Shown piece by piece: positions 8,083 to 47,313 of a stretch of 64,000 nt of DNA. Each line of letters begins with the position of its first letter. Position 1 is the first letter of the stretch. Made by a program: the position numbers and the translations under genes. The DNA is from Clostridium paraputrificum. GTDB taxonomy: Bacteria > Bacillota > Clostridia > Clostridiales > Clostridiaceae. The stretch spans positions 264,501 to 328,500 of the forward strand of contig NZ_UAWH01000014.1 in the NCBI RefSeq assembly GCF_900447045.1. Reading direction: 5' to 3'. The notes below the pieces were generated by a model. The model was not told the origin of the DNA. It saw only the letters and a program-made list of their open reading frames with translations, and did not search any database.

Positions 8083-8988
8083 ATGAAGGTTGGAGTAATT
8101 ATGGGAGGAATCTCGTCAGAAAGAGAGATTTCTTTAAAAAGTGGTAATTCAGTAGTTGAAAATATAGATAAGAATAAGTATGAAGTGATTCCTATAGTTA
8201 TAGACAAGAAGGAAGACATAATAAATAAAGTAAAGGGAATTGATTTTGCGTTACTTGCTTTACATGGTCAATTTGGAGAAGATGGTACAGTTCAAGCAGT
8301 TCTACAAACACTTGGAATACCATATTCAGGATGTGGTCCATTAAGTAGTGCTGCATGTATGGATAAGGATATGACAAAGAGCCTACTTCAAGCAGAAGGA
8401 ATTAGAACAGCACCTTGGATCAATTTAAGATCTTGGGATGAAATTAACTATGAGGATATAAAAAAGTTAGGATACCCTGTTGTAGTAAAGCCTACTCATG
8501 GTGGGTCAAGTGTTGCTACTTTTATAATTAAAGAAGAAAAAGAGATTGAAAATGCTGTTAAAGAAGCTTTTAAGTGGGATAACGAAGTTATGATTGAAAA
8601 GTTTATAAAGGGAGATGAAATAACATGTCCTGTAATGGGAAGAGAAATGTTCCCTGTTGTAGCTATTAAGCCGCATGCAGAATTCTTTGATTATACTGCT
8701 AAGTATGCAGACGGTGGGTCAGATGAATTTGTAATTGAGCTTGAAAAATCTTTACACAAAGAAGTGGAAAAGATGGCATTAGACACATATAGAGCACTTA
8801 AGTGTTCAGTGTATGCAAGAATAGATATGATTATTACTGAAGGAGGTATTCCATATATTCTTGAGGTAAATACTCTACCAGGAATGACAAAGGCAAGTTT
8901 ATTTCCTAAGAGTGCAGCAGGAAGAGGAATAGACTTTAGTGGATTAATTGATTTAATAATTGAAAATTCTATAAAAGAAAAAAGATAA
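8083..8988 (+). CDS. ddl: D-alanine--D-alanine ligase
   Basis: Cytoplasmic ATP-grasp enzyme that joins two D-alanines for the peptidoglycan pentapeptide. From the chosen ATG it is 301 residues. Landmarks are GGISSEREISLKSG at the N-terminal substrate domain, ALHGQFGEDGTVQ, VKPTHGGSSVAT in the ATP-grasp fold, and ILEVNTLPGMT, the metal-binding end. An in-frame ATG at 8065 is part of the Shine-Dalgarno sequence itself (GGAGG at 8067-8071), so the ATG at 8083, which gives the family's MKVGVIMGG start, is preferred. It is a single-gene unit with its own promoter and terminator. The neighbouring VanS/VanR- and VanW-like genes do not make this a vancomycin resistance cluster. Confidence 0.95.
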   Translation: MKVGVIMGGISSEREISLKSGNSVVENIDKNKYEVIPIVIDKKEDIINKVKGIDFALLALHGQFGEDGTVQAVLQTLGIPYSGCGPLSSAACMDKDMTKSLLQAEGIRTAPWINLRSWDEINYEDIKKLGYPVVVKPTHGGSSVATFIIKEEKEIENAVKEAFKWDNEVMIEKFIKGDEITCPVMGREMFPVVAIKPHAEFFDYTAKYADGGSDEFVIELEKSLHKEVEKMALDTYRALKCSVYARIDMIITEGGIPYILEVNTLPGMTKASLFPKSAAGRGIDFSGLIDLIIENSIKEKR

Positions 8989-13450: not shown

Positions 13451-14890
13451 ATGAAGGATAAAAAAGATATTATTAAAGTTTTAAAGTCAAAATATTTTAT
13501 TATTTCGGGAATTATAGTTTTAATAATTGGTGCTTATTTAGCTTATACAGCATCGTTAAGTAAGCAGGTAAAGGCTTGGGATAACAAAACATATCCGGGA
13601 GTGACTGTTAAGGGAGTAGACCTTGGCGGAAAGACAAAAGAAGAGGTGGCACAAATTCTTAATGAAAAGTTTTCATCACAGTTAAGCGAAAAGGCAATTA
13701 ATATAACTGTTGAGAACAAGAAACTTTCATACAAGTATGGTGACTTAAATGCTAAGTATAATATAGATGAAGTGGCAGAAGAGGCAGTCTTATACGGTAA
13801 AGATACAAGTGCATATAATAAAAATAAACTAATAAAGAATAAAAGTAAAGAGACTCATGAAATACAAATGCGCTTAGTTTATGATGAAACACAAATAGCA
13901 AATATCGAGAAAGACATAAAGAAAGCTGTAGATATATCACCAGTTAATGCAACAATTTCTAAATCGGGAGATAGTTTTAATATTTCTAGTGATAAAGTTG
14001 GGTATACTCTTGATTCAACGGATTTAGATGCAAAGATGAAAGAAGCATTAAATGGAAATTTAGGTGAATCTACTGATTTAACATTTAACTTAAAAGAAGT
14101 ACAAGCTAAAGTTAAAAAATCAGATTTAGCTAAGATTAATGGGAAAATGTCAACATTTTCTACTCAATACAAGTCATCTACAGAAGATAGAAGCTATAAC
14201 ATAGAGTTTGTAACATCATTATTAAATGGTACTGTACTTATGCCAGGTGAAGAATTTAGTTATGGTGAACTATCACAAAGAGGTAAAGGTAAGTATAAAA
14301 TAGGTACTATGTATGTAAATAATAAGGTTGTTCCTGCAGAGGCTGGTGGAGTGTGTCAAGTATCAAGTACATTATATAATGCAGCTATGCAAGCTAATAT
14401 AAGATCTACTGAGAGAAGGAATCATTCATTACCAGTTGGATATGTAGCTCCAGGTTTAGATGCAACAATGGCTTGGGGAGGAGTAGACTATAAGTTTAAG
14501 AACCCATACGATTTCCCAATTTATATTGAAGGATATACACAAAATAAGGTTGTGACTATAAATATATATGGAAGGCCAAGTGCTCTTGATGGGAAAACTT
14601 ATAAACTAGTCAGCGAAGATTTAGGAACTATACCTCAAACAATTAAGTATAAGGATGATGCAAGTTTACCTAAGGGCACAGAAGTTGTAGAGGTAAAAGG
14701 TGCAGCAGGGCGTAAAGCAAGAGCTTATTTAGTTACTTATAAGGATGGAAAACAAATTAATAAGGAACTAATATCTACAGATACTTATGCACCACAACAA
14801 ACAGTTATTAGAAGGGGGACAGGCCCTGTAGCTGAACCAAATACACCTGAATCAACAGATAAAGAAGCTACAGGAACACCAACAGCATAA
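13451..14890 (+). CDS. VanW-family cell-wall protein with PG-binding and G5 domains
   Basis: Membrane-anchored extracytoplasmic protein of 479 residues. A single N-terminal membrane segment (YFIISGIIVLIIGAYLAY) is followed by a PG_binding_4-type region with PGVTVKGVDLGGKTKEE. The VanW domain contains LMPGEEFSYGE and AGGVCQVSSTLYNAAMQANI. A G5 domain follows (about 390-460), then a threonine/proline-rich tail. VanW is named from vancomycin clusters but is common in ordinary Clostridium genomes and its activity is not established; a cell-wall role is inferred from the domains. AAAGGAG at 13436-13442 selects this ATG over an in-frame one at 13409. The HAD gene follows by 19 bases. Confidence 0.9.
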   Translation: MKDKKDIIKVLKSKYFIISGIIVLIIGAYLAYTASLSKQVKAWDNKTYPGVTVKGVDLGGKTKEEVAQILNEKFSSQLSEKAINITVENKKLSYKYGDLNAKYNIDEVAEEAVLYGKDTSAYNKNKLIKNKSKETHEIQMRLVYDETQIANIEKDIKKAVDISPVNATISKSGDSFNISSDKVGYTLDSTDLDAKMKEALNGNLGESTDLTFNLKEVQAKVKKSDLAKINGKMSTFSTQYKSSTEDRSYNIEFVTSLLNGTVLMPGEEFSYGELSQRGKGKYKIGTMYVNNKVVPAEAGGVCQVSSTLYNAAMQANIRSTERRNHSLPVGYVAPGLDATMAWGGVDYKFKNPYDFPIYIEGYTQNKVVTINIYGRPSALDGKTYKLVSEDLGTIPQTIKYKDDASLPKGTEVVEVKGAAGRKARAYLVTYKDGKQINKELISTDTYAPQQTVIRRGTGPVAEPNTPESTDKEATGTPTA

Positions 14891-23539: not shown

Positions 23540-23716
23540 CACACAGTGAAAGTAATTAAAATAAAAAAGATAAAAGAGAAAATAAAGATAATAGAAATAA
23601 GAAAGATAATAAAGATAAGGATGGAGCTCCTTAAGGGAGCTTCTAAAGAGTACATCATTAGAAAATCCAAAGGATTTTCATTCTTATCCTAATTAACTAT
23701 ATTATCTTTATTATCC
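23540..23716 (+). repeat. Intergenic repeat element with GATAATAAAGATAA inverted arms
   Basis: Between pgk and tpiA a purine-rich stretch contains GATAATAAAGATAA (23605-23618). The exact reverse complement TTATCTTTATTATC is at 23702-23715, 83 bp later. Inside the arms are two further hairpins: AGCTCC/GGGAGCT and AAAATCC/GGATTTT. The same core recurs near 29.6, 37.0, 42-43.4 and 43.55 kb. It has no coding potential. Confidence 0.72.
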
Positions 23717-29587: not shown

Positions 29588-29600
29588 GCAGGTAAGAAGG

Positions 29601-29740
29601 TAAGAGATAATAGAGATAAAAAGATTAAAAAGGATAATAGGGATTAGGAGGAGAAATTGCCCTTGGCAATTTCTCTCCTTAAATAAAAAAACTTTGCAGG
29701 TGCAAAGTTTTTTTATTATCTTTATTATCTCATTTATCTC
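29601..29740 (+). repeat. Intergenic repeat element with nested terminators after the ABC permease
   Basis: GAGATAATAGAGATAA (29604-29619) on the left and TTATTATCTTTATTATCTC (29712-29730) on the right are imperfect inverted arms of the GATAATAAAGATAA family. Between them sit a hairpin GAGAAATTGCC/GGCAATTTCTC (about 29651-29675) and a clear terminator AACTTTGC/GCAAAGTT at 29685-29714. The remaining stretch to 30010 holds no convincing gene. Confidence 0.7.
29685..29714 (+). terminator. Rho-independent terminator after the ABC permease
   Basis: A stem AAAAAACTTTGCA/TGCAAAGTTTTTT with a tiny loop and a T run (29708-29714). It is nested inside the repeat element and is A-rich at the other end, so it could work in both directions. 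Confidence 0.88.
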
Positions 29741-30025
29741 AGGCATCTTTCTTATCTTATAAAGGTTTTTTATTTGGAATATCAGAACTATTCCTACAAT
29801 TCACCACGAATAAATTATGAATTTATATATATCACTATGACTGTCTGGAAATTCATAATCATAAAATTATAATAAGTATCAACCTGGTTTTAGTTTTCAT
29901 GATAGGCCTCCTGAAGTAATCATAGGCACTCTCTACCACAAAATGTAAAATAAGAGAAGGGGTTTTTGTAATTTCCGGGGAAATATATTAGAATAAAATG
30001 GAATAATAATTTTAAGGAGAGGTAA

Positions 30026-39207: not shown

Positions 39208-41436
39208 ATGGGAATAAAAGATACATTATTAGAATTCATGCGTGAAGAAGCATATAGACCGATGGATATTCAAGAACTAGTTTCAGTTTTTGACATTAAT
39301 CCTGATGAATATAGAGCATTTAAAAAGACATTAAAAACAATGGAGAAGGAAGGGCTTATTTTTAGAACTAAAAAAGATAAGTTTGCGCTTCCAGAAAGAT
39401 TAGGACTTATTACAGGTAAACTACAAGCTCATGCTAAAGGATTTGGTTTCTTAATTCCAGAAGTAGAGGGAGAAAAGGATGTTTTTATTCCAAGTTCTTT
39501 TATAAATGGAGCTATGAATGGAGATAGAATACTTGTACAAATTACTAGGGAAGATAAGAACGGAAAGAAGAGAGAAGGAGAAGTAATTCAAATTCTAGAA
39601 AGAGGTAATACAAAGATTATTGGTGTATATGAAGACAGCAAAAACTTTGGATTTGTAATTGCAGAAGATACAAGGATTAGCCAAGATATATTTATATCTA
39701 AAAAGGACAGAAATGGTGCTAAAGACGGAGATGTTGTAGTTGTAGAAATTACTAAGTGGCCAGAGAAGAGAAGAAGTCCTGAAGGTGTAGTTAAAGAAGT
39801 GCTTGGACAAAAGGGTGATAAGGGGTTAGATATTCTAACTATAATTAAAAAGTATGGTCTTCCAGAAGAGTTCCCACCTAAGGTTCAAGCTTTTACAGCA
39901 GGTATTGACGAGGAAATACCTTTAAAAGAATATAAGAGAAGAAAAGATCTTAGAGATGTTAGAATGGTAACTATTGATGGAGAAGATGCTAAGGATTTAG
40001 ACGATGCAGTTTCTATAGAAAGACTTGATAATGGAAGATACAGATTAGGGGTTCATATAGCAGACGTATCTCATTATGTTAGAGAAAAGAATCCTTTAGA
40101 TAAGGAAGCTTTAAAGAGAGGTACATCAGTATACTTAATAGATAGAGTTATACCTATGCTTCCTAAGAAGTTATCTAATGGTATTTGTTCATTAAATCCT
40201 AAGGTAGATAGATTAACACTTTCTTGTATCATGGTCATAGATGGTAGTGGTAAGGTTTTAGACCATGAAATTGTTGAATCTGTAATAAGAACAAATGAAA
40301 GAATGACTTATACAGATGTAACTAAGATACTTAAGGATAATGATCCAGAGCTAAGTAAGAGATATGACTATCTTTTAGATGATTTTAAAGCAATGGAAGA
40401 ACTTTGTAATATTTTATATAAGAAGAGAACAAAAAGAGGGGCTATAGATTTTGAGTTTGAGGAATCTAAAATTATATTAAATGAATTTGGTAAGCCTATT
40501 GATATTAAGCCTTATGAAAGAGAAATAGCAAATAGAATAATAGAAGAATTTATGCTTGTGTGTAATGAAACAGTGGCTGAGCATATGTTCTGGAGTCACT
40601 TACCATTTGTTTATAGAATTCATGAAGATCCAGATGAAGAAAAGCTTGAAAAGTTTAGAGAATTTATATATAACCTAGGCTATATTGTTAAATGGAATGG
40701 AGAGGTTAAACCTAGAAATCTTCAAGAAATTTTAGAAAAGGTAAGGGGTAAGAAAGAAGAAACAGTTGTAAGTACTTTACTTTTAAGAAGCATGATGAGA
40801 GCAAAATATTCTCCTGAATGTGTAGGGCACTTTGGTCTTGCAGCTAAGTATTATTGCCACTTTACTTCGCCAATTAGAAGATATCCAGATTTACAAATTC
40901 ATAGAATAATTAAGGAATTTATAAATGGTAAGATAGATGATGATAGAAGTAAGAAGTTAACAGCTCTTGTTGATTATGCAGCAAGACAATCTAGTGAAAC
41001 AGAAAATATTGCAACAGAGGCAGAAAGAGAAGTTGACGACCTTAAGAAGGCTGAATATATGTTAGATAGAATTGGAGAAGAGTTTGAAGGTATTGTATCT
41101 TCAGTTACTTCTTTTGGTATGTTTGTAGAATTACCTAACACAATTGAAGGACTAATTCATATAACAGCTTTAGATGATGATTACTATATTTATGATGAAA
41201 ATCATTTATGCTTAATGGGTGAAAGAACTAAGAAGATTTATAGATTAGGTGATTTTGTTAAGGTTAGATGTAGCAAGGTAGATATTCCAAACCGTGAAAT
41301 ATATTTTGATATGGTAGAAGATGAATATATTAGGGAAGAAATTAAGGCTAGCAAAGAATTAGCTGAAAAAATATCTGAAGTTAAGCAAGAACTTAAAGAG
41401 GAAGACGTTGAAGAAACAGATGATAATATATTATAA
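39208..41436 (+). CDS. rnr: Ribonuclease R
   Basis: Processive 3'-5' exoribonuclease of 742 residues that degrades structured RNA and, with SmpB-tmRNA, non-stop mRNA. Domains in order: an N-terminal winged helix (1-65), cold-shock domains (about 70-220), the RNB catalytic domain (about 250-580) with TIDGEDAKDLDDAVSIE carrying the acidic cluster, and a C-terminal S1 domain (about 630-710, FEGIVSSVTSFGMFVELPN). AGGAGGT precedes the ATG. smpB begins 36 bases downstream, a conserved functional pairing. The 298-bp gap upstream to the divergent surface protein carries only promoter sequence that I can see. Confidence 0.97.
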   Translation: MGIKDTLLEFMREEAYRPMDIQELVSVFDINPDEYRAFKKTLKTMEKEGLIFRTKKDKFALPERLGLITGKLQAHAKGFGFLIPEVEGEKDVFIPSSFINGAMNGDRILVQITREDKNGKKREGEVIQILERGNTKIIGVYEDSKNFGFVIAEDTRISQDIFISKKDRNGAKDGDVVVVEITKWPEKRRSPEGVVKEVLGQKGDKGLDILTIIKKYGLPEEFPPKVQAFTAGIDEEIPLKEYKRRKDLRDVRMVTIDGEDAKDLDDAVSIERLDNGRYRLGVHIADVSHYVREKNPLDKEALKRGTSVYLIDRVIPMLPKKLSNGICSLNPKVDRLTLSCIMVIDGSGKVLDHEIVESVIRTNERMTYTDVTKILKDNDPELSKRYDYLLDDFKAMEELCNILYKKRTKRGAIDFEFEESKIILNEFGKPIDIKPYEREIANRIIEEFMLVCNETVAEHMFWSHLPFVYRIHEDPDEEKLEKFREFIYNLGYIVKWNGEVKPRNLQEILEKVRGKKEETVVSTLLLRSMMRAKYSPECVGHFGLAAKYYCHFTSPIRRYPDLQIHRIIKEFINGKIDDDRSKKLTALVDYAARQSSETENIATEAEREVDDLKKAEYMLDRIGEEFEGIVSSVTSFGMFVELPNTIEGLIHITALDDDYYIYDENHLCLMGERTKKIYRLGDFVKVRCSKVDIPNREIYFDMVEDEYIREEIKASKELAEKISEVKQELKEEDVEETDDNIL

Positions 41437-41472
41437 TTTATAAAAAAAATAAAAGCTAAGTAGGTGAGAAAT

Positions 41473-41943
41473 TTGGTAAGAAAAAAGAATAGTAATTCCT
41501 TAGCTGAAAATAGAAAAGCACGTCATGACTACTTTATTGAAGAAACTATGGAGGCAGGATTAGCTCTAGTTGGTACAGAAGTTAAATCAATTAGAGGAGG
41601 TAAGTGTAATTTAAAGGATAGCTATGCAGATATAGAGAATGGTGAAATTCTTATAAAGCAAATGCATGTAAGCCCATATGAACAAGGAAACATTTTTAAT
41701 GTTGATCCTATGAGAAATAGAAAGTTATTACTTCATAAGGAAGAAATTTTTAGACTTCAAGGATTAGTTCAAAGGGATGGATATACTTTAATTCCATTAT
41801 CACTTTATCTAAAGAATGGTAGAGTTAAGGTTGCTCTTGGGGTTTGTAAAGGTAAGAAGAATTATGATAAGAGAGATTCTATGCTAGAAAAAGCTGCTAA
41901 GAGAGATATGGATAGAGCTATTAAAAATAGTGGCAGATATTAG
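41473..41943 (+). CDS. smpB: SsrA-binding protein SmpB
   Basis: RNA-binding protein that delivers tmRNA to stalled ribosomes in trans-translation; 156 residues. Family blocks are [46 protein letters not shown] and KGKKNYDKR near the disordered C terminus. TTG 41473 gives [15 protein letters not shown], the usual N terminus, and lies 4 nt after AGGTGAG. The GTG at 41464 is inside that site. The partner RNA gene ssrA is 2.3 kb downstream on the same strand, beyond a repeat array and a small minus-strand gene. Confidence 0.96.
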
Positions 41944-42030
41944 TTAGGATAAAAGAAGAGAATAAAGATGCCTGAATATCTAAATCTATGATTTAGTAAT
42001 ATGAGGGTACTCTGTGAGTAAGAGAGATAA

Positions 42031-42068
42031 GGTGGAGAAATTGCTTGGTAATTTCTCTGCCTTTTTTT
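42031..42068 (+). terminator. Rho-independent terminator after smpB
   Basis: GGTGGAGAAATT (42031-42042) pairs with AATTTCTCTGCC (42050-42061), allowing two G-U pairs, and runs into seven Ts. Its loop and stem resemble the hairpin after the ABC permease (GAGAAATTGCC...GGCAATTTCTC), another sign of a shared intergenic element. Confidence 0.85.
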
Positions 42069-42097
42069 GTAGTAAAGTAAGGAGGTAAAAAGGTAAA

Positions 42098-43437
42098 AAG
42101 GATAATCAGGATAAAAGAGATAATAAAGTTGAAGAGGAAACTCTGCTATCGCTAGAGTTTCTGGAATATATAGATCGGCAGTGGTAATTATGAAAGTTTT
42201 ATTTGTGGGAATAGGATTTTGATTTTAAGTTGAGTTTGTGAGAGCTAAGGTACGAGGTAAGATAAAAAAGATAGCCAGGATAAAAGAGATAATAAAGTTG
42301 AAGAGGAAACTCTGCTGTCGTTAGAGTTTTTGAAATATATAGATCGGCAGTGGTAATTATGAAAGTTTTATTTGTGGGAATAGGATTTTGATTTTAAGTT
42401 GAGTTTGTGAGAGCGAAGGTACGAGGTAAGATAAAAAAGATAATCGGGATAAAAGAGATAATAAAGTTGAAGAGGAAACTCTGCTGTCGCTAGAGTTTCT
42501 GGAATATATAGATTGGAAGTGGTAATATGAAAGTTTTATTTGTGGAAATAGGGTTTTGATTTTAAGTTGAGTTTGTGAGAGCGAAGGTACGAGGTAAGAT
42601 AAAAAAGATAATCAGGATAAAAGAGATAATAAAGTTGAAGAGGAAACTCTGCTATCGCTAGAGTTTCTGGAATATATAGATCGGAAGTGGTAATTATGAA
42701 AGTTTTATTTGTGGGAATAGGATTTTGATTTTAAGTTGAGTTTGTGAGAGCTAAGGTACGAGGTAAGATAAAAAAGATAGCCAGGATAAAAGAGATAATA
42801 AAGTTGAAGAGGAAACTCTGCTGTCGTTAGAGTTTTTGAAATATATAGATCGGCAGTGGTAATTATGAAAGTTTTATTTGTGGGAATAGGATTTTGATTT
42901 TAAGTTGAGTTTGTGAGAGCGAAGGTACGAGGTAAGATAAAAAAGATAATCGGGATAAAAGAGATAATAAAGTTGAAGAGGAAACTCTGCTGTCGCTAGA
43001 GTTTCTGGAATATATAGATTGGAAGTGGTAATATGAAAGTTTTATTTGTGGAAATAGGGTTTTGATTTTAAGTTGAGTTTGTGAGAGCGAAGGTACGAGG
43101 TAAGATAAAAAAGATAATCAGGATAAAAGAGATAATAAAGTTGAAGAGGAAACTCTGCTATCGCTAGAGTTTCTGGAATATATAGATCGGAAGTGGTAAT
43201 TATGAAAGTTTTATTTGTGGGAATAGGATTTTGATTTTAAGTTGAGTTTGTGAGAGCTAAGGTACGAGGTAAGATAAAAAAGATAGCCAGGATAAAAGAG
43301 ATAATAAAGTTGAAGAGGAAACTCTGCTGTCGTTAGAGTTTTTGAAATATATAGATCGGCAGTGGTAATATGAAAGTTTTATTTGTAAGAGAGAAGTTTT
43401 GATTTTAACTTAAGTTTATGAGAGAAGAGTGAGAGTG
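42098..43437 (+). repeat. Tandem array of eight 168-169-bp units with 506-bp higher-order structure
   Basis: The 18-base anchor ATAAAAGAGATAATAAAG recurs at 42111, 42280, 42449, 42617, 42786, 42955, 43123 and 43292, i.e. every 169, 169, 168, 169, 169, 168 and 169 bp. Unit types repeat in the order A-B-C-A-B-C-A-B. Type A has GCTATCGCT and GAGCTAAGG. Type B has GCTGTCGTT. Type C has GATTGGAAG and lacks two bases. Same-type units are 506 bp apart and appear identical or nearly so (the first A differs by CGGCAG for CGGAAG). Every unit holds a potential hairpin GAAACTCT/AGAGTTTC without a T tract and a 10-codon frame starting ATGAAAGTTTTATTTGTG. The last unit diverges after about 43385. No protein-coding gene spans the array. 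Confidence 0.93.
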
Positions 43438-43544
43438 ATTAATTTAAAATTTTTATTTGGATTTTATTTACTGTTATGATATAAGAGCAGAAAGTTAAGA
43501 AGTTAAAAAGATAAGAAGTTAAAAAGTTATAGGAAAAATGCGGG

Positions 43545-43619
43545 GTTAGGAAGATAATAAGGATGAAAATGATAATAAAGATGAGGATGAAACTTTGCTT
43601 CGTTAGCGTTTCTTTTTTT
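43545..43619 (+). repeat. Diverged repeat-family copy ending in a terminator
   Basis: GATAATAAGGATGAAAATG and GATAATAAAGATGAGG lead into GAAAC (43589-43593), GCT/AGC and GTTTC (43608-43612), then seven Ts. It looks like the ancestral form of the array unit's hairpin, with the T tract that the array units lack. Just upstream, the motif AAGAAGTTAAAAAG is repeated in tandem (about 43498-43527). Confidence 0.6.
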
Positions 43620-43793
43620 AGTTAAATTAAAAATAAAAATAATATTATTAATATAAATAATAAATCTTAGAAAAATTCTTTTATAATAAAAATTCTAATA
43701 AATATAACAATATATAAATATAACAATATATAAATACATAGCAAAAATGCAGATTGAGGGAGGAGTTGGTGGAGCTATGAATTATTTTATAAA

Positions 43794-43829
43794 ATAAAAA
43801 AATAGCTTCAAAAAAATTTTGGAAGCTAT
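43794..43829 (-). terminator. Terminator for the minus-strand small membrane gene
   Basis: On the minus strand ATAGCTTCC and GAAGCTAT pair around an A/T loop and are followed by a T run (plus-strand As at 43794-43801). The AT-rich interval 43620-43793 contains a 16-bp direct repeat (TATAACAATATATAAA at 43703 and 43719) and no gene. Confidence 0.8.
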
Positions 43830-43852
43830 AGAGAGAGTTTTTAAATAAATTT

Positions 43853-44032
43853 TTATATATTTTCTATAGTGAAGTTATAAAATGGTTGGTATTCTACTGA
43901 AGTTGATTCTCCTGTGATTAAAAATAAAGCAGATGCTAAGATGTACATGAGAATTAAAACTAGAAGAACAGTTCGTAAGGTTAATCTTTTTTCTTTTATT
44001 ACCGATAACACATCGCTGATCCAAATCTCCAT
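43853..44032 (-). CDS. Small single-pass membrane protein, 59 residues
   Basis: Minus-strand frame starting MEIWISDVLSVIKEKRLTLR, with AAAGGAG 8 nt before the ATG and its own downstream terminator. A charged amphipathic head of 20 residues is followed by one hydrophobic segment (TVLLVLILMYILASALFLI, 21-39) and a short polar tail ending NFTIENI. The orientation is probably N-in with the tail outside. It sits alone between the tandem array and ssrA, transcribed away from ssrA. I do not recognise a family; function unknown. Confidence 0.72.
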   Translation of the reverse strand: MEIWISDVLSVIKEKRLTLRTVLLVLILMYILASALFLITGESTSVEYQPFYNFTIENI

Positions 44033-44237
44033 AAATTTTTCTCCTTTGTTTAATAAGTTCAGTAGTAGTATTCTCTTTTATTTATAGAATTATTTTCAAA
44101 AAATCATATTTATACGTGGCAATTATTTCAGAGGGCCGTCACATTGACAGTGAATTTTTTATATTATATAATGAATTCACTGAAGAAATTAAAAACTAAA
44201 TATTGCAATTTGTTTTGAAAGTTCTTCTTATCAACAT

Positions 44238-44590
44238 GGGGGCGTTTTGGCTTCGACGGGGGTAAGATGGGTTTGATAAGCGAGCCGAGGTAAGCATGTT
44301 CCCTCGTTAATCAAGTATGCATTAAAGATAAACGCAGAAGATAATTTTGCATTAGCAGCTTAATATAGCCGCTCATCAGTCCAGGATGCCTACGTCTTGG
44401 GTAGCTGGTGTCATAAAGTAGGAAACGAAGTCTAGCAAAGCTTTGAGCTAGAGGGGTATTTATGAAGCTAGGGAGTGAGGAGTTTGTTTGTGAGCTAACT
44501 CATGACCGAAATTTTAATCACAAACTACGCTCGTAGAAAGTCAGGCTGGTCTGCTTTCGGACACGGGTTCGACACCCGTCGCCTCCACCA
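44238..44590 (+). ncRNA. ssrA: Transfer-messenger RNA (tmRNA)
   Basis: About 353-nt RNA that rescues stalled ribosomes by acting as both tRNA and mRNA. The 5' GGGGGCG pairs with CGCCTCC before the encoded 3' CCA (44588-44590). The T arm GGGTTCGACACCC is intact. The internal reading frame at 44334-44363 encodes the tag AEDNFALAA followed by TAA, with GCA as resume codon. Pseudoknot-forming segments lie downstream of the tag. The partner smpB gene is 2.3 kb upstream. Confidence 0.97.
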
Positions 44591-44594
44591 TAGA

Positions 44595-44628
44595 AAAAAA
44601 CTGTACTTTTAGTAGTACAGTTTTTTAT
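44595..44628 (+). terminator. Rho-independent terminator after ssrA
   Basis: AAAAAACTGTACT pairs with AGTACAGTTTTTT around a 6-nt loop, with a T tail. A near-identical stem follows the gene at 56724. Confidence 0.94.
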
Positions 44629-44677
44629 TTTCACAAATTTAATTTTCCTTTTTATTAGAACTCCTTAAGTATTTAAA

Positions 44678-45478
44678 TTAAGTATCTTCTACCATTATTT
44701 CTATCTTAACACAGTATTGATTTTCATCTTTTGTTGAAAGTTCATTTAGGGGATATTCCTCATAGGCATCACTACATATGCGTAAATTATTTTCTTTTAT
44801 AAACTCATATAATTTTTCATAAAGATCATCAGATTCTCCATAAGCACATCTTCCATAGAAAACTGCATACTTACCTTCAGGCTTATATGAATTTTGTTCA
44901 TTTATAGCTTTAAAGTAATATTGAGTTACATATAAAGGAGTTCCTGCTTCAATGTCTTCCTTACTAATAATAGCACCAAGGGGATAACCTATATCAATTC
45001 CATTTTCATAAGCGAAATTATAAAATGAAATAGCAGACCCATTAGAGGAGTCTTTAGAAGCTATAGGGCCTAAGAAAATAGGTTCTTTCTTTTTGTATTC
45101 AATATTTATACTATTTTCTTTATATTTAATAGCTTCCTCTGCCATATCAACATAAAGTTGCATAACTTCTAATATACGCTTAAGCTTTTTTATTTCAGTT
45201 AATATATGTTTTTTCTGTGAGCTAAATAAGGAGAACATTTCTTCAGGAGTACGTATATCAATATATCTTCTTATTTCTTCAATTCCGATTCCAATTTCCC
45301 TAAGAGAGGTAATTAAATATGCTGTGGTTAATTGATTTCTAGTATAATAGCGGTAGCCATTTTTACCACGGAATTCTGGTGACAACAGTCCAATTTGATC
45401 ATAATATCTTAAATTTTCACGTTTAATACCTGTAAGAGCAGAGAACTCCTTAATTTGCATATTAGACCCATCTTTCAT
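44678..45478 (-). CDS. MerR-family regulator with GyrI-like effector domain
   Basis: Cytoplasmic multidrug-sensing-type regulator of 266 residues, similar in layout to BmrR. The N-terminal MerR helix-turn-helix (about 7-75) reads MQIKEFSALTGIKRENLRYY, then GLLSP and GYRYYT. A coiled-coil linker follows (about 80-118), then a GyrI-like ligand-binding domain (about 128-266). GGAGGT precedes the ATG; an in-frame TTG 12 bases upstream is part of that site. It is divergent from two ABC exporter genes whose promoter has the 19-bp spacer that MerR proteins remodel. It is therefore very likely the activator of that exporter in response to a drug-like ligand. Confidence 0.92.
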   Translation of the reverse strand: MKDGSNMQIKEFSALTGIKRENLRYYDQIGLLSPEFRGKNGYRYYTRNQLTTAYLITSLREIGIGIEEIRRYIDIRTPEEMFSLFSSQKKHILTEIKKLKRILEVMQLYVDMAEEAIKYKENSINIEYKKKEPIFLGPIASKDSSNGSAISFYNFAYENGIDIGYPLGAIISKEDIEAGTPLYVTQYYFKAINEQNSYKPEGKYAVFYGRCAYGESDDLYEKLYEFIKENNLRICSDAYEEYPLNELSTKDENQYCVKIEIMVEDT

Positions 45479-45504
45479 AATAACCTCCAAATTTTAAATT
45501 ACTA

Positions 45505-45535
45505 TTGACATTAAAGTTACTTTAAGCTTTATAAT
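45505..45535 (+). promoter_or_regulatory. MerR-type promoter with 19-bp spacer and palindromic operator
   Basis: TTGACA (45505-45510) and TATAAT (45530-45535) are consensus elements but 19 bp apart instead of 17. The spacer contains a perfect 15-bp palindrome, TTAAAGTTACTTTAA (45511-45525). This is the diagnostic architecture of promoters activated by MerR-family proteins through DNA untwisting. It drives the ABC exporter genes and faces the regulator gene. Confidence 0.9.
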
Positions 45536-45585
45536 ACCACTGAAAATAAATTTTATCAAAATTACTTACATAATGGAGGTAAACT

Positions 45586-47313
45586 ATGAAGTATTTAAAA
45601 CTATTCCTAAAAGAAAGAAAAGGCAAAGTAGGAATAACATTAATCATGCTTTTAGGACAAGCAGTAGGGACATTATTAATTCCATTTCTAATAGCAGGGA
45701 TTGTAGATAATGGAATTTTAAAAGGTGATATGAATGAGATTCTTAATATAGGTGGCCAAATGCTATTAGTTCTTTTAATAACAACAGTGGCAGCTGTACT
45801 AGGAAGTTATTATTCTGCTGACCTTGCTGCAGTGTTTGGATATTACATGAGAGATAAGATTTTCCGTAAGAGTCAGGAGTTATCTATTCATGACTTTGAC
45901 ACTATTGGAGTTTCTTCTATGATTACACGTACAACTTCAGATATTTCTAATCTGCAACAGACTTTTGGGTTGGTCTTACAGCTTATAGTTCCAGCCCCAC
46001 TTATTATTGTTGCATCTATAGCTATGACAACATATACTAGTTTAACTTTAGCATTGGTACTTATTTTATCTGTAGTAATATTTATAGTTTTTGCTAGGTT
46101 AGTACTTAAGAAATCAATATTTATTTCTAAAAGGGTTCAGGATAAATTGGATTATATTAATCAAGTAATAAGAGAATCTATTACTGGAATCCGTGTTATT
46201 CGTGCTTTTGGAAATGAAGAATACGAGGAAGATAGAGCAGGTAAAGCCTTTAAGAATTATGCTACAGATATGATAAAGCTAAATAAGATATTTGCTGTAT
46301 TAAATCCTACAATATGGCTTATGATTGGCGTGTCCGTAGCTATTATAGTTTGGGTAGGTGGAGTATTTTCTATGAAGGGGTCAATGGAAATTGGCCAGAT
46401 AACTGCTGTAACTGAATATTCTATTATTACATTAAGCTATTTAATATTGGCTACAACAACAAGTGTTACTCTTCCTAAAATGAAATCATGCCTTGATCGT
46501 ATAGAGGAAGTTTTGGAAATCAATCCAGAGATTCAGGATTTTAATATAGAAAAGAAATGTGCAAAGGACGATTGTGCAGTGGTTGAATTTGAAAATGTGT
46601 CTTTCTTTTATAAGGGGGCAGAGGAACCTGTTATAAGAGATATATCATTTTCATGTAATAAAGGTGAGACAACAGCTATTATTGGAAGTACAGGCTCTGG
46701 TAAGAGTACTATTGCTAACCTTATTTTAAGGTTACATGACATAGATCAAGGAGAAATTCGAATAAATGGTGTGGATATAAGATGTCTTTCTCAAAAGGAA
46801 TTAAGAGATACAATTGGTTACGTTCCTCAAAAAGCCTTTTTATTTAGTGGGACAATTGAGGATAATTTAAGGATGGGATATAAAGAGGCAACTAAAGAAG
46901 ATATGGAGAGAGCATTAAGTATTTCTCAATCAAAATCTTTTGTAGATAAATTACCTATTGGGCTAAAGTCTGAGGTCTCCCAAGGTGGATCAAATTTCTC
47001 AGGTGGGCAGAAGCAACGTTTGTCTATTGCAAGAGCTCTAATTAGGAAGGTCCCAATTTATATTTTTGATGATAGTTTTTCTGCTTTGGATTTAAAGACA
47101 GATTCAGCACTTCGTAAATCACTTAAAGAAAATATGAGAGATGCAGCTAAGATAATAATTGCACAGAGAGTAAGTACAATTATGGATGCAGATCAAATCC
47201 TTGTGTTAGATGAAGGAAAATTAGTTGGCATTGGAAAACATATTGACTTAATGAAAAACTGCTCTGTATATCAAGCAATTGCTAAAAGTCAGATGAGTAT
47301 AGAGGAGGTTTGA
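45586..47313 (+). CDS. ABC exporter half-transporter, degenerate-site subunit
   Basis: Membrane exporter subunit of 575 residues with a six-helix membrane domain (1-310) fused to an ATPase domain. Walker A is GSTGSGKST, the signature FSGGQKQRLSIARAL is canonical, but Walker B ends IFDDSFSALD with aspartate in place of the catalytic glutamate. This is the pattern of the degenerate partner in heterodimeric exporters such as BmrC or TM287. The partner gene follows 4 bases later and has the complementary defects. Transcribed from the MerR-type promoter; a multidrug or peptide substrate is likely but not shown. Confidence 0.93.
   Translation: MKYLKLFLKERKGKVGITLIMLLGQAVGTLLIPFLIAGIVDNGILKGDMNEILNIGGQMLLVLLITTVAAVLGSYYSADLAAVFGYYMRDKIFRKSQELSIHDFDTIGVSSMITRTTSDISNLQQTFGLVLQLIVPAPLIIVASIAMTTYTSLTLALVLILSVVIFIVFARLVLKKSIFISKRVQDKLDYINQVIRESITGIRVIRAFGNEEYEEDRAGKAFKNYATDMIKLNKIFAVLNPTIWLMIGVSVAIIVWVGGVFSMKGSMEIGQITAVTEYSIITLSYLILATTTSVTLPKMKSCLDRIEEVLEINPEIQDFNIEKKCAKDDCAVVEFENVSFFYKGAEEPVIRDISFSCNKGETTAIIGSTGSGKSTIANLILRLHDIDQGEIRINGVDIRCLSQKELRDTIGYVPQKAFLFSGTIEDNLRMGYKEATKEDMERALSISQSKSFVDKLPIGLKSEVSQGGSNFSGGQKQRLSIARALIRKVPIYIFDDSFSALDLKTDSALRKSLKENMRDAAKIIIAQRVSTIMDADQILVLDEGKLVGIGKHIDLMKNCSVYQAIAKSQMSIEEV

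Follow-up and report, generated by a model that had tools for sequence, protein, structure and literature searches.

The interval between smpB and ssrA in Clostridium paraputrificum holds a tandem array of eight head-to-tail units of 168 or 169 bp, arranged in the order A′-B-C-A-B-C-A-B′, in which a three-unit block of 506 bp forms a second level of repetition. The reading that we favor, with a probability of roughly 0.7, is that this array is a noncoding intergenic minisatellite, derived from a dispersed module by two rounds of ordinary amplification and tolerated at this site without a sequence-specific function. Coordinates refer to the window, i.e., the whole 64,000-nucleotide stretch that was analyzed (assembly GCF_900447045.1, contig NZ_UAWH01000014.1, positions 264,501 to 328,500), unless another contig or locus is named, and the features of the region are collected in Table 1.

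Table 1. Genes, repeat units, and flanking elements of the smpB-ssrA region (window coordinates)
Feature	Position	Strand	Basis
rnr (RNase R), upstream gene	39208..41436	+	Pfam RNB E 4.9e-118, cold-shock and S1 domains
smpB	41464..41943	+	Pfam SmpB E 6.1e-62
Probable intrinsic terminator after smpB, ahead of the array	42029..42070	+	16-pair stem then T run, -19.4 kcal/mol
Whole array, eight units, 2.6 copies of the 506-bp trimer	42090..43424	+	TRF and offset comparison
U1, type A′ (edge unit that differs from A at 3 positions)	42090..42258	+	unit comparison
U2, type B, identical to U5	42259..42427	+	unit comparison
U3, type C, 168 bp, identical to U6	42428..42595	+	unit comparison
U4, type A, identical to U7	42596..42764	+	unit comparison
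U5, type B	42765..42933	+	unit comparison
U6, type C	42934..43101	+	unit comparison
U7, type A	43102..43270	+	unit comparison
U8, type B′, degenerate from 43370 on	43271..43424	+	unit comparison
Unit 5′ half (U4 as example): hairpin GAAACTCT-loop-AGAGTTTC after a GATAAT-rich purine tract, no T run	42596..42680	+	folding
Second dispersed intergenic repeat, copy (..AAGAAGTTATAG.AAAAATGCGG..)	43495..43547	+	nhmmer E 5.3e-9 (profile built from 8 further copies)
Diverged solo copy of the unit 5′ part	43544..43617	+	79% over 56 nt; T run after a weaker hairpin (-5.1 kcal/mol)
Third dispersed motif, ATAACAATATATAAATATA, two copies	43698..43740	+	genome pattern search
59-codon ORF convergent with smpB, possibly a small membrane protein	43853..44032	-	ORF; no Pfam match
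ssrA (tmRNA), tag AEDNFALAA	44238..44590	+	tmRNA search

Organization of the Array

When the window was scanned with Tandem Repeats Finder (TRF), the array was recovered with a period of 169 bp (7.9 copies) and of 337 bp (4.0 copies) and, once the period limit was raised, of 506 bp (2.6 copies, 98% matches). Identity of the array with itself is 73% at an offset of 169, 76% at 337, and 95.5% (792 of 829 positions) at 506, i.e., the block period is more homogeneous than the monomer period and the organization is of higher order. The A-B-C unit order and the true period of a 506-bp trimer, both proposed in a preliminary description of this DNA, are borne out by these measurements; so is the array itself, which had been placed at 42098–43437, with the correction that it starts 8 bp and ends 13 bp earlier.

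The match at an offset of +506 is exact over 684 bp (positions 42180–42863), giving a tract of exact 506-bp period that extends over 1,190 bp (42180–43369); the units are not all equally diverged. The 37 mismatches at this offset comprise three at the left edge (42093, 42100, and 42179) and 34 from 42864 on, the latter corresponding to the last 55 bp of U8; one extra mismatch in the unit comparison has 43425 as its partner, which is already outside the array.

Regarding the units themselves, U2 and U5, U3 and U6, and U4 and U7 are letter-identical pairs, so that the expectation of identical or nearly identical units within a type holds for these pairs, and both edge units are variants: two of the three differences between U1 and type A fall in its first 11 bp, and U8 follows type B up to 43369 and then continues as a loosely similar tail. 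Types A and B differ at 8, A and C at 7, and B and C at 11 of 169 columns (93–96% identical), a real difference for which the “many sites” of the preliminary description was a generous term. Of the 13 variable columns, 10 are transitions and 2 are transversions, and the remaining one is a single-base deletion.

If the 684 bp had diverged as much as the types have, about 28–45 differences would be expected in them, and none is observed. For this reason, and assuming the same rate throughout, the last block copying would be some ten-fold or more younger than the divergence of the monomers. An amplification at two levels, with the monomers duplicated first and the trimer much more recently, is thus well supported by comparison of the units, in agreement with the earlier suggestion that the monomers had diverged before the trimer was amplified.

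The Interval between smpB and ssrA

The local order is rnr, smpB, the array, the 59-codon ORF on the opposite strand, and ssrA; apart from an overlapping pair of 57 and 59 codons, no ORF of at least 50 codons lies between smpB and ssrA. Among named relatives of smpB, those with the highest scores mostly belong to Clostridium. A terminator scan of 41400–44700 reported as its sole site the one downstream of smpB, whose weight rests on the 16-pair stem because shuffled sequences give 0.8 ± 1.0 sites. A 12-of-12 sigma-70 promoter match for ssrA, TTGACA-17-TATAAT, lies at 44144–44172. With the probable smpB terminator in front of it and a separate promoter match for ssrA behind it, the array would lie outside both expected transcripts. 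The promoter match overlaps a 17-bp inverted repeat, CAGTGAATTTTTTATAT/ATATAATGAATTCACTG (88% complementary, 44144–44182), which is absent from L018, the one relative inspected by eye.

Other repeated sequences lie between the array and ssrA. The solo copy of the unit 5′ part has a T run, unlike the array units, and is not reported by the terminator scan. A second dispersed family, AGTAAAAATGCGG, is represented by degenerate copies at 43495–43547 (E 5e-9) and 43712–43785 (E 8e-4), and has eight pattern matches in the own genome at up to two mismatches (reversed control, 0); it has no Rfam match and is possibly a small mobile or RNA element. Its members often show AAGTTCTTAAG-type arms followed by TTATAGTAAAAATGCGG.., several of them with a tail near GATTTTTGTGAGATAAATTCTAA (e.g., L215–L222). 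An origin of the monomer from this family was considered and rejected, as the family profile matches no array unit; as a control of the profile, 50 plain letter shuffles gave one match, at E 6.7. The third motif, ATAACAATATATAAATATA, has 23 genome matches at no more than one mismatch, two in the window and 21 elsewhere (reversed control, 0), and in L128 it comes immediately after GAAGTTATAGGAAAAAT, a sequence similar to the beginning of the AGTAAAAATGCGG element.

Anatomy of the Unit and Its Dispersed Relatives

The arms of the unit hairpin are kept in every unit, with a folding energy of -12.6 kcal/mol in types A and C and -7.9 kcal/mol in type B. What follows the hairpin is TGGAATAT or TGAAATAT and not the T run of an intrinsic terminator, and because of this absence the copies in the array are probably not working terminators.

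The motif at the junctions between units, GGTACGAGGTAAGA, is found outside the array at three exact sites and one site with one mismatch (reversed control, 0). Of the exact sites, one lies directly before a hairpin/terminator and two before a GATAA tract; the sequence around the one-mismatch copy, on contig C2, has neither tract nor hairpin. When the whole intergenic region was compared by BLAST with about 0.47 Mb of own-genome stretches and with the window, relatives of the unit 5′ part with both tract and hairpin were recovered in L114 (about 13946–14026; 79% over 68 nt), at window positions 29702–29759, at C14:135624, and in L116 (about 8747–8860). The second half of the unit has no significant relative.

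GATAAT-rich purine tracts running into terminator-like hairpins were also noted in the window at 29590–29770 and 23540–23660, in L114 at 13940–14060, and, in reverse orientation, in L011 at about 1000–1090; in places such tracts flank a hairpin pair in both directions, and in L011 they apparently start at a stop codon. The pattern AGATAATAAAGATAA, at one mismatch, has 58 matches in the own genome versus 27 for the reversed control, a raw count that is the highest of 67 genomes (own included) and that, per Mb, is about level with G074 (43 in about 2.7 Mb). At least two GATAA motifs stand upstream of 5 of 152 terminators, versus 0.7% of random places, which is a weak enrichment, and the enrichment of GATAAT tracts in this genome is modest.

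Distribution in the Genus

No full-length unit occurs outside the array among the scored candidates in the own genome, where the next-best matches are of 58 and 49 bp at 80–81% and the other 39 reported are weaker, and none occurs in 67 other genomes of the genus. Nine of these 67 do match the unit at E ≤ 1e-3, each over only 28–55 bp at 79–93% identity; eight of the nine matches fall in the purine tract, and none is counted as a copy.

Both smpB and ssrA were found in 61 genomes (own included), 46 of which have them on a single contig and 15 on separate contigs; tmRNA positions in the relatives were taken from an Rfam search, and ARAGORN, run on 34 relatives, missed genes that blastn found. 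In 44 of the 45 same-contig relatives smpB is followed by ssrA on the same strand, the exception being G052, in which they are megabases apart. The spacing among the 44 goes from 543 bp (G061) to 54,030 bp (G047); it is 2,297 bp here, smaller in seven relatives, and over 10 kb in 25. The two genes keep their order but not their distance, i.e., a variable interval separates two fixed genes, so that the location of the array beside a universally conserved gene pair stands as far as gene order is concerned but not as a fixed neighborhood. As a side observation, a relative of smpB at G079:C39:19395–19742 (minus strand) has an in-frame TAG and matches residues 1–117 only.

The intervals of 20 of the 44 linked relatives, all below 11 kb and one of them (L155) stopping at a contig end, were compared with the present one. 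None contains the unit (E 1e-3) or a homologue of the array region, and consequently the ancestral state of the interval is not visible in them. The wider intergenic region matches these intervals at the 5′ side of ssrA or in the 3′ part of the region, outside the array, and their sole TRF array with a period of at least 100 is a 231–255-bp repeat inside an open frame (L163). A conserved smpB-ssrA element was rejected, given that the 20 fetched intervals lack the unit and that a separate search matched 0 of 39 relatives.

Frequency of Comparable Arrays

Over the 464 kb of the own genome that were scanned, 2,500 N positions included, no other array has a period of at least 50. Ten genomes of the genus with one or two contigs each, sampled over 800 kb in total, gave three arrays: 78 bp × 2.0 in frame, 116 bp × 2.3 noncoding, and 1,423 bp × 2.9, the last (L182, 14166–18317, from G010) with copies 95% alike and mostly outside long open frames. 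These 800 kb contain no noncoding array with a unit of 50–1000 bp and at least three copies. A survey of 80 smpB loci (784 kb, period of at least 60) gave five array loci, of which two are wholly in frames, L076 (97 bp × 3.0, 66% matches) is partly in frame, and two are noncoding with 2.0–2.4 copies. Noncoding arrays of about two copies do occur, and one of eight copies was seen once in a small sample; the earlier statement that such an array is rare in a compact bacterial chromosome is upheld on samples of this small size only. Given how seldom long noncoding arrays turned up in the sequence sampled, something may favor this one.

In a toy neutral model with arbitrary parameters, in which random block duplication or deletion was combined with mutation, arrays were kept at exactly eight units, and the six inner units were judged, a period-3 pattern arose in 0, 0, 0.16, 0.68, 1.7, and 2.9% of cases at 0.1, 0.3, 0.5, 1, 2, and 4 mutations per unit per event, and a period-2 pattern in 0–2.6% of the eight-unit arrays. 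Under this model, the period-3 pattern would not be the default outcome, yet it would need no special mechanism: it is possible, not likely.

Class of the Array

With direct head-to-tail copies of a unit longer than 10 bp and without spacers, the array is a minisatellite. It overlaps no stop-free stretch of more than 100 codons, the longest being 94 codons, on which ground a protein-coding repeat was rejected, and neither 169 nor 506 is a multiple of 3. The units abut without unique spacers, so a CRISPR array was rejected as well; on both points the preliminary description was right. A structured RNA was rejected because a single unit is no more stable when folded than its shuffled versions (z 0.17) and the array has no Rfam match: a search of 40000–46000 at E ≤ 1 returned the tmRNA, which alone is above the gathering score, and a sub-threshold snoRNA match at 40371–40426, both outside the array. 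A phage or plasmid origin was likewise rejected, as the unit has no match to phages and plasmids at E 1e-5 and the exact 26-letter hairpin pattern has 0 matches in IMG/VR. Altogether, nothing supports a function for the array, and its transcription is possible.

Origin of the Array and Alternative Explanations

The proposed history would begin with a 169-bp segment starting with a terminator-type module (GGTACGAGGTAAGA, GATAAT-rich purine tract, and hairpin), which would have been tandemly duplicated, probably by replication slippage or by short-homology recombination between purine tracts. The copies then drifted apart by 4–7%, mostly through transitions, as the present types show. The last step, about two rounds of copying of a three-unit block, can be read in the array from its exact 506-bp copies and the older variant units left at both edges; it would have proceeded by unequal recombination in a register shifted by three units. 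Variant edge units are what unequal exchange leaves behind, and their presence at both edges fits such exchange. The array has the probable smpB terminator on one side and a small convergent ORF on the other, and the interval that contains it differs greatly in length across the genus. The array would most likely be tolerated at this site, and its trimer number may change between strains.

It is unlikely, on balance, that the array is real but owes its unit number or trimer order to the assembly. Identical 506-bp copies are uncountable by short reads, the tract of exact period is longer than such reads, and the assembly, in 20 contigs, has 16S fragments at the starts of C14 and C18 and two of its four full-length 16S genes (among eight 16S matches) within about 3 kb of contig ends, at the ends of C1. 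However, the two other full-length genes are well inside contigs (C14:931338 and C1:15762), meaning that some long repeats were crossed, the variant units anchor the array at both edges, and an assembler that collapses repeats would be more apt to drop copies than to create extra ones. The exact unit number is provisional. We consider improbable a regulatory or RNA role, in which hairpin units transcribed by read-through from smpB or from minus-strand promoters would act as a multi-hairpin buffer or as a repeated source of small RNA. The conserved hairpin arms would suit it, as would a minus-strand promoter-like match in every unit (TTCATA-17/18-TATATT, 9 of 12), which contributes to 20 sites in 41400–44700 versus 13.0 ± 3.4 in shuffles, and a putative 10-codon ATG frame kept in all eight units (MKVLFVGIGF in five, MKVLFVEIGF in two, and MKVLFVREKF in one). 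Yet 8 of the 20 sites are one weak site copied eight times, the unit is no more structured than its shuffles, the type B hairpins are weaker, the probable terminator and the separate ssrA promoter match leave the array aside, and the absence of the unit from all 67 other genomes gives no sign of a conserved role. Still harder to credit is a bolder version, in which a terminator-associated module would seed a self-expanding bacterial satellite and the repeat-loaded interval would be a live locus whose copy number shifts by 506 bp at a time and which adjusts read-through between the two genes of trans-translation.

A remnant of a mobile or viral element carrying tandem repeats is very improbable: ssrA is a known integration site of islands, and the variable spacing from smpB would suit such insertions, but the phage, plasmid, and IMG/VR searches were negative and the interval has only the two overlapping small ORFs. 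Finally, head-to-tail units at constant spacing could recall an array to which proteins bind, comparable to plasmid iterons or to a site of segregation or replication initiation, with repetition serving cooperative binding; typical iterons, though, are far shorter than 169 bp, the unit is known from one genome only, and no plasmid matches it, so that we give this proposal hardly any credence. The array is best filed as a noncoding minisatellite, with a function that is putative at most.

Relation to Known Repeat Systems

The array shares with the higher-order repeats of alpha satellites a history of diverged monomers followed by block copying, near-identical block copies, and variant edge units. 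It differs from them in extent and context, as alpha satellites have hundreds or more block copies and a centromere role, and the array, in a bacterial chromosome and outside any centromere or heterochromatin, has 2.6 copies and no such role. Moreover, alpha-satellite monomers within a block are more diverged than the types of the array. The comparison with alpha satellites made in the preliminary description is hence apt for the two-level amplification and overstated as a general frame, since about two trimer duplications and types that are 93–96% identical are involved. The similarity of the 169-bp unit to the alpha-satellite monomer, given as 171 bp (PMC4585704), is taken as coincidence.

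Closer parallels are the intergenic minisatellites or VNTR loci used, e.g., for MLVA typing, which likewise consist of head-to-tail noncoding units between genes. A Streptococcus pneumoniae typing set contains intergenic loci with 12–51-bp units and strain-variable copy number (PMC1315331), and slippage and recombination figure as the two models of tandem-repeat expansion (PMC3899988). In contrast with VNTR loci, the present array has a longer unit and a second-level period, and is known from one genome. In S. pneumoniae, BOX elements, boxA-(boxB)n-boxC, are dispersed intergenic hairpin elements in which boxB expands in tandem, and SPRITE repeats are terminator-like and enriched near gene 3′ ends (PMC3049150). 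The likeness to our array, i.e., dispersed intergenic hairpin modules of which one expands in tandem, is an analogy only and implies no sequence relation; unlike BOX, the array is at one locus, has a unit of 169 rather than 45 bp, and shows no boxA- or boxC-like end modules. Among the matches listed, the titles and abstracts, subscription literature being outside their scope, contain no report of a bacterial intergenic higher-order tandem array.

Significance

The array offers a clean and small bacterial case of two-level tandem amplification, the process that is held to build the higher-order repeats of satellites, and in a haploid genome this process could be followed experimentally. If the array proves not to be variable, it is a curiosity; if it is true that strains differ by steps of 506 bp, it would be usable as a typing marker and as a model for the register of recombination.
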